Assembly (NCBI GenBank): GCA_009835985.1
Contig: VXWI01000048.1
Location: forward strand, 1 to 52,103
Length of the DNA: 52,103 nucleotides
From: Acidobacteriota bacterium
Lineage (GTDB): Bacteria > Acidobacteriota > Vicinamibacteria > Marinacidobacterales > Marinacidobacteraceae
Reading direction: 5' to 3'
Part shown: one piece after another, positions 41,975-47,175 of the stretch
How the letters are laid out: each line of letters begins with the position of its first letter
Numbering within the stretch: the first letter of the stretch is position 1
Translations under genes and position numbers: made by a program
Notes under the pieces: model-generated
What the model saw: only the letters and a program-made list of their open reading frames with translations
Databases searched by the model: none
Told to the model about the DNA's origin: nothing

Positions 41975-42925
41975 CTACGCTGTTTCTTTGGGTCGCGGCC
42001 CCAGAAAGCGGTCGCCGTCGTAGTGGATGAGATGGTCTGGGGTGTCGCAGAGCCACACTTCGGTTTCCCAAGCGATGTTGGTCATGTGTTTGCGGAACTC
42101 TCCGAAGTCTGGAAACGCACTGATATAGATCGGGTCCGCGGTGCACGTGACCAGCATGGCTTGCAGATCGACCATCCGGGAGGGCGCAATTGGCCCGTGG
42201 GAGGTCACCGCCTCGACGAGGAACAGCCAGTTTCGTTCGGGGTCGTACAGGAGCACGTCGGGCAACTTGTCGTGATCTGTGATCGGGATGCCTAGTTCGG
42301 CTAGACGAGTTCTATCCACGAACAGGTCCTTCTTTTCCGTGTCGCCTAGGTAGAGCAGGTGCGCGCCGGGTGCGAAGCGGGGCGCGAACTCTTCGACCAC
42401 TGCTCTTTGGACCTCGTTGTGCTTGCCGGGAGAGAGCCGAACGACTCGGCCGTCAGGCAACGTCACCGGAACCTGGCGGCGATTCCGATCCTGTGCGTAA
42501 CGCTCCACGAGTGCGCCCTCTTCGCGCCGGAAGTGGGCGACGGCAGCCTCCCAATCACTCGTCCCGTAGCGACGAACGACACCCCGCGCGAGCTCGGAGA
42601 CGGCATAGTGGGCGTTGGGACTGTTCGTCGGCAGGTCGGGTTCGAAGGGGTTGTATTCAGCGATCCCGCCCTGGACGAACTGATGTAGCACCTGCCGTCT
42701 GAACGTCTCGCGCGTATTCGCCGCGTACGTCGTTTCGTAGTGCTCCGCGAGGTAGTCCATGATGCCCTTGGTGACCGTGCACCGTCGTCGCTCAGCTTTC
42801 TCCCAGCCGGAGTCGGGGGTCAGCCCGCAGAGCGCGATCAGCGTCATGCCCGCCATCTGGTTGTGTTGGGCCGCTGGCATGCCCAAGGCCTCGAGGATCT
42901 CCTGCGCCTCCGCGACGCTAGCCAA
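41975..42925 (-). CDS. BsuBI/PstI family type II restriction endonuclease
   Basis: A 316-residue restriction enzyme. The N-terminal part matches the family's helical domain (AQEILEALGMPAAQHNQMAG, then ANTRETFRRQVLHQFVQGGI). The C-terminal nuclease core has YLGDTEKKDLFVD, DHDKLPDVLLYD with Asp223, and NWLFLVEAVTSHGP with Glu238, which form the PD-(D/E)xK-type site. Known members PstI and BsuBI cut CTGCAG; the same target here is inference. The TTG start is supported by homology from residue 3 on and overlaps the methyltransferase stop by 8 bases, so the nuclease is made after the methylase. Confidence 0.93.
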   Translation of the reverse strand: MASVAEAQEILEALGMPAAQHNQMAGMTLIALCGLTPDSGWEKAERRRCTVTKGIMDYLAEHYETTYAANTRETFRRQVLHQFVQGGIAEYNPFEPDLPTNSPNAHYAVSELARGVVRRYGTSDWEAAVAHFRREEGALVERYAQDRNRRQVPVTLPDGRVVRLSPGKHNEVQRAVVEEFAPRFAPGAHLLYLGDTEKKDLFVDRTRLAELGIPITDHDKLPDVLLYDPERNWLFLVEAVTSHGPIAPSRMVDLQAMLVTCTADPIYISAFPDFGEFRKHMTNIAWETEVWLCDTPDHLIHYDGDRFLGPRPKETA

Positions 42926-44555
42926 CGGCGGCCTCCTTCCACGGAAGAGGGACCATCATGCTGGCGACGAGTGCGTCCACTTTCGCTGCGGGGTCGGGCA
43001 GGTGCTTCACCTGCCGCCCGAGCGCGACGATCGCCTCGTGCGTGGGAAGAGGCATGGCGCGTAGCTCGGTGGCGTTTACCTGGGTGTTGCCGTTGACCGT
43101 ACGGAACCAGGTGTCGAGTAAACGGCTGTTGTAGAGCGCGGCCAGACCCCACGCCTCGTCCTCCGAGAGTTCGCCGCCGGGCCGGTGGACGTAGTTGAGA
43201 TGGTTCTCCAGCCCGACCTCGGGTACCTGGAAGGCGGCGGCGATGAAGGGAGCGGCCGTCAACCGGCGCGGCTCTTCCTTGGCGCTGAAGCGACGGAGCA
43301 GGACGTAGTTTCGGTTGGGGAGGAGGAGCGCTCCGGCGCCCCTCCGCACGATGTACTCCGGCTTGTGCCGGCTGAGCGGCCACCTGGCTTCCATTGCCCG
43401 AACATGGTTCATCCACAGGAGCGGCACGTGTGTCACGGGGATCTCTCCGTCCTCGGCGATGAACTTGTTTGCCCGAAACGCCACCACTGGCCCGGTCGAG
43501 ATGTTGAGCCCCAAGTCGGAAAGACTGCTCGGCCAGGCGTCTACCACGGCCAGGGCCCGCTCGTCGTCGTCGCAGACCGGCAGCCGGAGGACCTTCTCAG
43601 GGGAATCAAGGTTGAGCACCGTGCTGGCTGGAACCTGGCGGACACTGGGTTCGCCGAGATCGTCAACTCCGAGGCTCGACGAGATCTCGACGGTGGAACG
43701 GTTCTCCAGCCCGTGATCCTGGCGCACGCCGTACACGATGACGTTTTCCTGCAGCACTGCGTCTCGACGAAACGCGTCACGCCGGGAACCGAAGACATGA
43801 ACTCGGGCCGGCCGGATCAAGTCAAAGAACACGGTCCGGAACTGCCGGAAGTACGGACCGGAGGCGAAGCTCCTCGGCGTGATGAACACGAAGTCCCCCC
43901 GTTGCCGCAGGAGCGCGGCGCCGGCGGCCATAAACAGCGCGTAGATGTTGGGCTGCCCGTGGACCACTTCCGAGACGGCCGCCGCCCGTGGGTCGTCCTT
44001 GCCGATCTTGAAGTAAGGCGGATTTGCGATGACGACATCGAACGGCTCCGCCGCCGAGCGTTTCGGGAAGAGTCCCCGCGGATGCAGGAGCTTGGCGTTC
44101 GCCAGGATGAAGTCCGTGGTCTCGATGCGGACGGAGACCGTCACTCCATAGCGCCGACGGCACCAGTCGGCCAGATGGTCCAGGACAGCCTGAAGCGGCG
44201 GGAGTAGGTCCCGGTCGATTTCATGGGCGATCAGCTTGACAATCCGGGGCTTGACGCGGCGGGAGGCGAGATGCTCCACGGCGGCGCAGCAGAGAATGCC
44301 GGCCCCGGCAGCTGGATCCAGGACGCGGATTTCGTGCTCCTCGCAGGTGATCCTCCCCGCCATGAAGCCGGCCACTACCGCCGGGGTCAGGAAGAGGCCG
44401 TGCTCCTTGCGCTCCCTGTCGGTCTTCTGTCGAATGCACCATTCGCCGATCCGGTCGGCGTACGCCGTGGGTCGCTCGACGGTCCGGGGGCCCGGCATCG
44501 GCCAGCGCGACGGCGCGGGGCCGATCGGAGCCTGTTTTGCGCGGTCTTGGCTCAT
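42918..44555 (-). CDS. type II N6-adenine DNA methyltransferase
   Basis: A 545-residue gamma-class methyltransferase partnered with the BsuBI/PstI-type nuclease. The SAM site is DPAAGAGIL (80-88) and the catalytic motif is NPPY (178-181), giving N6-methyladenine. EHGLFLTPAVVAGFM precedes motif I as in M.PstI and M.BsuBI. The C-terminal part (VGLENHLNYV, GLAALYNSRLLDTWFR) is the target-recognition region. The ATG at MSQDRAK is preferred; the frame stays open 55 codons upstream but that part is low-complexity. It overlaps the nuclease gene by 8 bases. It would protect host DNA at the nuclease target. Confidence 0.92.
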   Translation of the reverse strand: MSQDRAKQAPIGPAPSRWPMPGPRTVERPTAYADRIGEWCIRQKTDRERKEHGLFLTPAVVAGFMAGRITCEEHEIRVLDPAAGAGILCCAAVEHLASRRVKPRIVKLIAHEIDRDLLPPLQAVLDHLADWCRRRYGVTVSVRIETTDFILANAKLLHPRGLFPKRSAAEPFDVVIANPPYFKIGKDDPRAAAVSEVVHGQPNIYALFMAAGAALLRQRGDFVFITPRSFASGPYFRQFRTVFFDLIRPARVHVFGSRRDAFRRDAVLQENVIVYGVRQDHGLENRSTVEISSSLGVDDLGEPSVRQVPASTVLNLDSPEKVLRLPVCDDDERALAVVDAWPSSLSDLGLNISTGPVVAFRANKFIAEDGEIPVTHVPLLWMNHVRAMEARWPLSRHKPEYIVRRGAGALLLPNRNYVLLRRFSAKEEPRRLTAAPFIAAAFQVPEVGLENHLNYVHRPGGELSEDEAWGLAALYNSRLLDTWFRTVNGNTQVNATELRAMPLPTHEAIVALGRQVKHLPDPAAKVDALVASMMVPLPWKEAAVG

Positions 44556-44862
44556 GCTCGGCGCTTGGTGGTCGGTACCTTGATCGCGCCGGATGGCTCC
44601 GGCGGAGCCGGGAGGAGCGGCTGTCGGGTCTGGTCCCGCTGAACGAAGCGCGGGGCGGCCGCCCAAATCATCTGGAACGGGGGTTTGCTGTGTCCGGCCG
44701 CCACGACGTTGACGCCGCATAGTCTGCCCCGTCCAGGCTTTCGGTCAACCGTTTTCTTGGACTGTTCAGCCACCGGCTCGACGTCCGGTTCCCGGGGCGG
44801 TTCGGCAGAATGCCGCACCTCACGGAGTGGGGCCGCACGGTCGTCCTTCCCGGGAGGACAAC
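44556..44862. other. intergenic gap holding a doubtful small frame
   Basis: Between the methyltransferase and the AbiEi-like gene the minus strand has an open frame ending in a TGA that overlaps the methyltransferase ATG (ATGA). It starts as far up as 44932, inside the AbiEi-like gene. Its product would be proline- and arginine-rich with no motif. The cognate AbiEii toxin gene, expected right here, is absent. I treat the gap as non-coding or a relic. Confidence 0.3.
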
Positions 44863-45438
44863 TCACGCCGAGAGAGCCTCCAGGACCGGACCGACGAGCG
44901 ACTTCGCACGGCACACCTCGGCCGCGCGCCAAATCTGATCGGCGGTCGCTTTGCGATCGTGAAGAGCGTCGCGCAGCGCTTCGAGCGCTACGTGCACGCC
45001 GAATAGCCGGCGGAAGCGGAAGCAGTCCACCACGGTGCGTGCCGGGCTCGTGATCCGGACGGGAACGCCCTCGAAGGTTGTGTCAACGACCCCGTAGCGG
45101 AGCGATACCCCGGAAAAGCGGACCACCCGGACCGGCAGTTCAGGAATGAGGGGAGCGCGGGCCTTGTGGGGGACCGCGATCCAGACCCGCCGCGGCGTTT
45201 GGGTACCGAGGTCGTGGATCCTCAGGGCGGTTAGAAGGCAGACGATGGCATGCGGCACCCGAGCGCAGACGGCAGCGTGGGTGTAGTGCTCTGTGAGTTC
45301 AGCATCGGTGAACCGATATAGACCCCGGGCTACGCGCTCAACGGCTCCGTCGTCCACCAAACGCCGTAATTCGCGGGAGTGGAGTCCAGCTGCGGCTGCG
45401 TGCTTGTGACGAAAGAAAGCCGTTCGGTCAAGGTCCAT
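44863..45438 (-). CDS. AbiEi-type antitoxin/transcriptional regulator (orphan)
   Basis: A 191-residue protein of the AbiEi family, the antitoxin and autorepressor of type IV AbiE toxin-antitoxin systems. The N-terminal winged helix is ELRRLVDDGAVERVARGLYRF, followed by VCLLTALRIHDLGTQ, VWIAVPHKARAP and PARTVVDCFRFRRL, all typical. The AbiEii nucleotidyltransferase toxin that normally follows is missing; a restriction-modification pair comes next instead. The ATG at 45438 is chosen because an alternative TTG at 45480 lies inside the palindromic operator. It may have become a regulator of the restriction-modification genes downstream. Confidence 0.85.
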   Translation of the reverse strand: MDLDRTAFFRHKHAAAAGLHSRELRRLVDDGAVERVARGLYRFTDAELTEHYTHAAVCARVPHAIVCLLTALRIHDLGTQTPRRVWIAVPHKARAPLIPELPVRVVRFSGVSLRYGVVDTTFEGVPVRITSPARTVVDCFRFRRLFGVHVALEALRDALHDRKATADQIWRAAEVCRAKSLVGPVLEALSA

Positions 45439-45475
45439 CTCGATTGACGGCAGACATGGAATGTTCTGATTTGTC

Positions 45476-45495
45476 GGCAATTGTAGTCAATTGCC
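45476..45495. promoter_or_regulatory. palindromic operator upstream of the AbiEi-like gene
   Basis: Perfect inverted repeat GGCAATTG (45476-45483), TAGT, CAATTGCC (45488-45495), 38 bases before the AbiEi ATG in a locally AT-rich stretch. AbiEi proteins bind inverted repeats in their own promoters, so this is a likely autoregulatory operator. The rest of the 315-base gap to 45753 includes AT-rich sequence near 45664-45735 that may hold the promoter of the next plus-strand gene; no -10/-35 pair is certain. Confidence 0.7.
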
Positions 45496-45753
45496 TGCAT
45501 TTTCGACCACCTTGCCCACTCTGTCGGCGACGTGCGACGAGTGGATCGGTGGCGCGTCACGGCCTTCAGCTCGGAGACGGCTCCTCACGAGCCAGGGGCC
45601 CGCACGTTCGTGGGGATGGAAATCGGCCTGGTCCGGCCGATGCGGGTGCGGTCAGCGATGGAGGTTATATACTTGACTCCCGAAGAAATGATCCATAAAC
45701 TGTCCGTGTTCTTGTGATCATTTGTGACTAATCCTACTCATTCGGAGACCTCA

Positions 45754-47175
45754 ATGCGCGACTTCCTCCTGCGCTACCCCGACAGCGCGGCAGCCCGTGC
45801 CTACTTTGAGGAGCGGCGCTGGCGGGGTTGTGTCGCCTGCCCCTATTGCCGCGGTGAGGACGTTCTCGCGCGGACAGGAAAGCGCACTGGCTACTACCGA
45901 TGCCGGAACTGTGCTGGAGAGTTCACAGTTAGGACAGGCACGCTTCTCGAGCGCTCCCGCGTTCCCTTAGACAAATGGCTCTATGCCTTGTACGTCCTTG
46001 CGACAGCGCGTCAGGGGACGTCGTCAGTCCAGCTCGCCCGCGAGATTGGCGTCACGCAGAAGACAGCATGGTCCATGCTTGCGAGGCTACGCGACGCCTG
46101 CGACGGCGATCCAGAGTTGCTCATGCCAGTGCGGGAAGGAGACTCGGCGTCAACTGGCGGGACGTCGCGTCGGACTCCGGGTTCCACTTCCACGCAGTCA
46201 ACTACGACTATGGGCTACGACGAACTAGACCGCACTACGGATCGGCTCCTCTCATACACCCCCAATCGCAAGCCAGAGGATGCGCTTCAAGCAATAGCCG
46301 GAACACCGGACAGACCTCTCGTGATCGGCAACGTTGAGATACCGTGTTACGTCCTAGAGGACGAGACTCGCGTCTTGGCTCAACGGGGCATGGTGTCAGG
46401 CCTCGGAATGGCCCGGGGTGGCAGCTCCAAAGGCGGCGGGGACCGGTTGGCACACTTCGTTTGCCAGAAGACTCTCCGGCCGTTCGTTCCGGCGGATCTG
46501 ATTGAGTTGACTACGAATCCGCTCCGATTTCGCACGCCCAACGGCAACATGGCGAACGGTTATCCAGCGACTCTCCTTGCCGACGTCTGTGATGTTGTTC
46601 TCGATGCTAGAAAGGCGGGCGTACTTCAAAGACAGCAGATGCATATCGCGGCGCAGTGCGAAACGCTAGTACGCGGATTTGCTCGCGTCGGAATCATCGC
46701 GCTCGTCGACGAGGCAACGGGTTACCAACGTGTCCGTTCTCAAAGGGCCCTGGCAATCATTCTCGAGAAGTTTATTTCCGAGGAACTCCGGCCTTGGACA
46801 AAGACGTTTCCGTTCGAGTTCTACGAACAGATTTGCCGACTCCGAGGCTGGCCGGACGTGTATTCGATACACCGCCCATCGGTAATCGGAAAGTACACGA
46901 ACGATATTGTCTATGACCGCTTGGCTCCCGGTGTGCTGCGTGAGCTAAAGAAACGAAACCCTGTGGTGGCCGGCACTGGGCGCCGTCGACATAAGCATCA
47001 CCAGTGGTTCACTCAGGACTATGGTCATCCAAAGCTGCGCGAACATTTGGCTGGCGTAATTGCTCTGATGCGTGTTTCGAAGACATGGTTTGGCTTCAGG
47101 CGGAACCTCGTGAAGGCATACCCACGACTTGGAGATCAAATGCTCTTGGACTATGACCTGCCGGGAGAAGAATAG
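45754..47175 (+). CDS. IS1595-type transposase N-terminus fused to a P63C-domain protein
   Basis: A 473-residue chimera. Residues 1 to about 123 match the start of ISXO2/IS1595 transposases: FLLRYPDSAAARAYFEERRW, a zinc ribbon (CPYC at 29-32, CRNC at 50-53), and a helix-turn-helix (VQLAREIGVTQKTAWSMLAR). The transposase DDE domain is absent. After a Ser/Thr-rich linker, residues about 155-473 are a P63C-domain protein: VEIPCYVLEDETRVLAQRGM, ARVGIIALVDEATGYQ, TFPFEFYEQICRLRGW, HKHHQWFTQDYGHP. An ATG at 46210 could start the P63C part alone. GGAGA precedes the 45754 ATG. It cannot transpose; a DNA-binding role is inferred. Confidence 0.8.
   Translation: MRDFLLRYPDSAAARAYFEERRWRGCVACPYCRGEDVLARTGKRTGYYRCRNCAGEFTVRTGTLLERSRVPLDKWLYALYVLATARQGTSSVQLAREIGVTQKTAWSMLARLRDACDGDPELLMPVREGDSASTGGTSRRTPGSTSTQSTTTMGYDELDRTTDRLLSYTPNRKPEDALQAIAGTPDRPLVIGNVEIPCYVLEDETRVLAQRGMVSGLGMARGGSSKGGGDRLAHFVCQKTLRPFVPADLIELTTNPLRFRTPNGNMANGYPATLLADVCDVVLDARKAGVLQRQQMHIAAQCETLVRGFARVGIIALVDEATGYQRVRSQRALAIILEKFISEELRPWTKTFPFEFYEQICRLRGWPDVYSIHRPSVIGKYTNDIVYDRLAPGVLRELKKRNPVVAGTGRRRHKHHQWFTQDYGHPKLREHLAGVIALMRVSKTWFGFRRNLVKAYPRLGDQMLLDYDLPGEE

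Follow-up and report, generated by a model that had tools for sequence, protein, structure and literature searches.

In the window, the stretch of 52,103 nucleotides of an Acidobacteriota genome analysed here, an open reading frame of 473 codons runs without a stop along the plus strand at 45754–47175; it would comprise 483 codons if an in-frame GTG at 45724 were used as the start. Its front half (129 codons) carries the DNA-binding half of an IS1595 transposase at 45760–46125 (plus strand), namely the zinc ribbon, with four cysteines, and the following helix-turn-helix (HTH) of that family, as identified by Pfam, NCBIfam, a profile built from 37 IS1595 transposases, and a phylogenetic tree. 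The NCBIfam IS1595 transposase model matches with an E-value of 3.8e-12, over profile positions 1–72 of 215 only, and Pfam Zn_ribbon_IS1595 reaches 4.2e-5, slightly below the family cut-off. The 37-member profile scores 149 bits over residues 3–148 and stops there, shortly after the first catalytic motif, whose sequence has degenerated in the window ORF (EGDSASTGG versus EvDEtyiGG). The DDE catalytic domain is absent, since the match ends at residue 148 and no C-terminal remnant is found in any frame. The back half (300 codons) is a complete P63C protein region at 46279–47175 (plus strand), matching phrog_2384 with an E-value of 5.6e-99 and sharing 59–60% identity with the P63C of locus L022. 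Within it, the Pfam P63C domain PF10546 lies at 46759–47037 (plus strand) and covers all of the model (profile positions 1–93 of 93; E 3e-31; 108.3 bits against a gathering cut-off of 26.1). Both the zinc ligands and the invariant residues of P63C are intact. The profile matches to both halves thus bear out the initial annotation, which had described an IS1595 zinc ribbon and HTH in frame with a full P63C protein over 473 codons.

The left terminal repeat of an IS1595-family element, GGAGGTTATATACTTGACTCCCGA, is found upstream of the ORF at 45660–45683 (plus strand), recognized by its core and by comparison with the ends of complete elements, whose subgroup consensus is GGGAATTATATACTTGACTCCCGA. 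The core, TTATATACTTGACTCC (45665–45680), occurs once in the window, where 0.02 copies are expected, and once in the whole genome. It is also the core of the end repeat of five complete IS1595 elements (L025, L186, L187, L188 and L192), each of which has this repeat at both ends as well as a perfect 8-bp target duplication, and encodes a transposase with 51–56% identity to the window front half. Inside the IS end lies a promoter-like site, TTGACT-17-TAAACT (45673–45701, plus strand, by consensus match), and in related elements the end repeat is likewise followed by this -35 and this spacing. A ribosome-binding-like GGAG (45744–45747, plus strand) stands 6 nt upstream of the ATG at 45754; the internal ATG at 46210 has no recognisable ribosome site in front of it, and the sequence favours initiation at 45754, upstream of 46210. 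Neither a right IS end nor a target duplication was detected in the window by a motif search and a blind scan for end repeats plus duplication. Since the left end and its expression signals are kept and the right end is absent, the gene consists of the left half of an IS fused to P63C, and in this anatomy and origin we have high confidence. That a transposase module had been captured by a phage-type protein, as proposed earlier, is correct as to the joining; the DNA-binding module was not, however, lifted into P63C by itself, having been accompanied by the terminal repeat and promoter of the IS. It is rather probable that the fused 473-aa protein is made, as predicted, from the IS promoter.

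The junction at 46141–46209 (plus strand) is rich in serine and threonine in the frame of the ORF, as had been pointed out before, and yet its coding signal lies two bases on, by both codon-position composition and codon log-odds. In the ORF frame, its GC1/GC2/GC3 values are 0.39/0.91/0.61, and codon log-odds rise to +0.56 bits per codon in the frame two bases on, as against -0.56 in that of the ORF. Frame 0 is coding-like up to about 46135 and again from about 46205. What looks like a Ser/Thr-rich linker is therefore most plausibly some 65 nt read out of frame, not a designed sequence, and chance openness is needed over a short junction only, the remainder being two real coding sequences. A short coding-like peptide, SAGRRLGVNWRDVASDSGFHFHAVNYDYG, can be read at 46128–46214 in the frame two bases after that of the ORF, and the junction peptide GRRLGVNWRDVASDSGFHFHAVNYDYG in this frame has no match in Pfam, plasmids or the fetched loci. 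A C-terminal transposase remnant in the junction was considered and rejected, as neither the 37-member profile nor pairwise scoring, compared with random windows, rose above background in any frame.

An out-of-frame linker is also what accidental read-through would leave, the main rival to a functional reading, and one that we regard as a real possibility, if not a probable one. On this view, a copy of IS1595 inserted within or beside a P63C gene and has since been eroded by deletion, the junction is open by luck, and at most the P63C part is useful, the DNA-binding half being a scar. Against it stand the stop-free halves with their key residues, the retention of the IS promoter-like site and ribosome site, and a P63C region without a visible start signal of its own.

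The initial annotation suggested a search for the same junction in other genomes. When this search was run, the exact join was found in this genome only, among the genomes scanned, and the fusion is absent from seven genomes of the same genus; its restriction to one genome counts in favour of read-through. A conserved fusion protein family, such as the defence factor that was first suspected, would have the restriction-modification and AbiEi-like genes next door on its side. We nevertheless consider it scarcely credible, because the scans yielded no second genome with the fusion, the fusion has no PADLOC match, and the linker is out of frame; the transposons of its relatives, described below, do frequently contain toxin-antitoxin or defence-type genes as cargo. 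The neighbouring genes (41975–45480) comprise a BsuBI/PstI-type restriction enzyme and methyltransferase, followed by the AbiEi-like gene, beside which no AbiEii toxin was noticed. A chimeric assembly, in which the join would not be present in the organism, might be suspected of a draft genome in 124 contigs; it is very unlikely, since proteins of these two types are encoded side by side at 22 other loci and ordinary genes continue along the contig on either side.

In the tree of DNA-binding halves, that of the window groups with those of L025, L035 and the second transposase of L155 at 99/99, on a long branch (0.99), and 18 of the 63 columns that are invariant in its subgroup are changed in the window front half. 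The long branch and the changed columns also fit decay, and a front half that has diverged faster than its relatives is a further point for accidental read-through. Elsewhere, this transposase subgroup was found unpaired with P63C. One of its members, at L186:6709–8116, has lost its catalytic core in frame while both ends and the target duplication are intact, and this non-autonomous copy could still make a DNA-binding protein. Another, at L155:4812–7744, has an internal catalytic deletion and sits within the P63C member of a transposase-P63C pair. For read-through, it is relevant that such internal catalytic deletions are found in L186 and L155, which are ordinary IS copies from this subgroup, and that the latter has inserted into a P63C gene.

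Full-length IS1595 transposase genes directly before P63C were first seen in genome contigs of metagenome-assembled Truepera (L022) and Phycisphaerales (L023), and wider searches brought the totals to 19 full-length transposase-P63C pairs and three pairs lacking the DDE domain, in addition to the window fusion. A motif lies about 90–110 bp upstream of the transposase gene, with an inverted copy downstream. Ten elements are complete, being bounded by end repeats and flanked by perfect 8-bp duplications (L014, L022, L023, L064, L150, L151, L156, L159, L169 and L175); they span 2.1–4.2 kb, and most carry cargo, including PDC-S34 (L014), a SocA/Panacea antitoxin (L023), a PemK-like toxin (L151), DNA methyltransferases (L156, L175) and DUF4760 (L150). 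These elements give the impression of compact carriers of toxin-antitoxin, methyltransferase and candidate defence genes. The smallest, L169 (2102 bp), holds the transposase and P63C genes and nothing else, and P63C therefore looks like a core component rather than mere cargo; it holds the second position throughout several transposase clades, with cargo that differs between elements. The full-length pairs are spread over several transposase clades and have scattered positions in the P63C tree, which indicates several origins or exchanges of the partnership. Complete IS1595-P63C transposons occur in several phyla, and the group is widespread and apparently undescribed: the openly available papers found on P63C and IS1595 make no mention of the pairing. 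The association of IS1595 with P63C is not accidental.

The window shows the same gene order, IS1595 followed by P63C on one strand, with the DNA-binding half as its only transposase part and with no end repeats found that enclose both. In a quick tree, its P63C is sister to that of the complete transposon L022 (59% identity, SH-aLRT 95), in the midst of intermixed transposon and stand-alone copies. This relationship, together with the fact that P63C constantly occupies the second position, down to the minimal element L169, would suit an origin as a deletion derivative of an IS1595-P63C transposon, whose transposase had been replaced or overrun by that of another IS1595 and whose P63C would still be under selection from an earlier role in transposition. 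Such a history is improbable, as the clade-I element ends have left no trace, the clade-I TIR motif being absent from the window, and the mixed P63C tree also allows an origin from a stand-alone phage copy.

At three loci (L074, L176 and L177), the DNA-binding half alone, without the DDE domain, precedes P63C, and the two genes are closely spaced or overlapping. In L074, this half has 164 aa, and three tandem 22-bp element-end-like repeats lie directly upstream (L074:2357–2423) in what looks like an operator array. The L177 half (134 aa) ends at the first catalytic motif, and that of L176 (133 aa) has a stop overlapping the P63C start; a single TIR-like or end-like site lies upstream of each. 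A right end was found at none of the three, and for L177 this permits no judgement, as the contig stops just behind P63C. The window is thus a fourth DDE-less case, with the genes fused into one, and among the genomes scanned it is the only one in which an IS1595 DNA-binding half and P63C share a single reading frame. That three other loci also retain the DNA-binding half alone with P63C argues against accidental read-through. At a further locus (L179:4001–5471), an IS1595 zinc ribbon-HTH is fused to an unrelated C-terminal domain and followed by a PIN-domain gene, possibly a toxin-antitoxin pair with a transposase-derived antitoxin.

The fold of the P63C part is predicted with confidence (pLDDT 86.9). 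It matches that of phage Mx8 p63 (E 1.4e-9) and, weakly, those of BRO/antirepressor proteins (E 0.014 and above), while a search of the PDB gave no significant match; phrog_2899, the anti-repressor Ant, aligns with part of P63C at an E-value of 3e-8. The modelled fold thus suggests a weak resemblance to phage BRO/antirepressor proteins. No function of P63C was found in the literature and databases searched.

Like the IS1595 family (the IS1016 subgroup and its relatives), the elements related to the window combine a zinc ribbon plus HTH with terminal repeats and 8-bp direct repeats, and the ends of the family member ISApl4 (PMC12561309), GGGGCTGTACTAGA, resemble those of L092 and L014. The window copy differs from the family in having neither a DDE domain nor a right end, and the related complete elements differ from described IS1595 insertion sequences in carrying P63C as a second gene plus cargo. 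As small transposons bearing extra genes, they are similar to the insertion sequences with passenger genes termed tIS (PMC7986276), from which they are set apart by having P63C as a constant second gene over several transposase clades, with variable cargo. The window back half is homologous over its whole length to P63C proteins (PF10546; phage Mx8 p63), far above the Pfam cut-off. Such proteins are normally encoded by stand-alone phage, prophage or plasmid genes, and 84 of the 108 P63C ORFs in the fetched loci have no adjoining transposase, whereas the P63C of the window is fused to a transposase DNA-binding module. By analogy only, the gene may be likened to TldR, the TnpB-derived RNA-guided transcription factors of phages (PMC13418256), in that a transposon protein without catalysis may serve as a regulator; it has no RNA guide and is an unrelated protein, and its regulatory role is a prediction.

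The explanation that we prefer, with a probability of about 0.5, is that the ORF represents the left half of a transposon fused with P63C and probably gives a DNA-binding protein that is immobile and regulates itself. A member of the IS1595 family from the subgroup with GGGAATTATATACTTGACTCCCGA ends would have lost its DDE domain and right end beside a P63C gene, leaving as a remnant the IS end, the transposase promoter, the ribosome site and the zinc ribbon-HTH, which reads in frame into P63C. Expression from the IS promoter would yield the 473-aa protein, whose HTH half would bind DNA resembling the IS end, including its own promoter, and thereby bring about autoregulation, and P63C would supply oligomerisation, assembly or contacts with partners. 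As the old IS end overlaps the gene's own promoter, the simplest mechanism would be a DNA-binding protein that recognises that end. In place of a transposase, the cell would have a transcription factor or antirepressor that cannot move and controls its own expression. A subgroup IS end that is unique in the genome, the 99/99 grouping, and the kept promoter-like site and GGAG speak for this explanation, as do the sister position of its P63C to that of the transposon L022, the 19 pairs, the three DDE-less pairs with their end-like sites upstream, the ten complete elements, the intact key residues and the P63C fold matches. The occurrence in one genome, the out-of-frame linker, the diverged front half, the unpaired subgroup and the weak antirepressor resemblance speak against it, and the regulatory function predicted for the fusion protein is proposed tentatively.

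In a larger reading, which is a real possibility though less likely than not, IS1595 and P63C would form a widespread two-component transposon core in which loss of the catalytic domain repeatedly yields regulators whose operators are the old ends, the window being the first fused single-protein version. The IS1595-P63C transposon group is the larger result of this work and the one most worth following. P63C is a common phage protein domain, and its constant place behind a transposase in complete transposons, together with its repeated retention beside a DNA-binding half alone, gives a testable handle on its role: it would act with a sequence-specific DNA-binding partner, the target of which would be predictable from the transposon ends.
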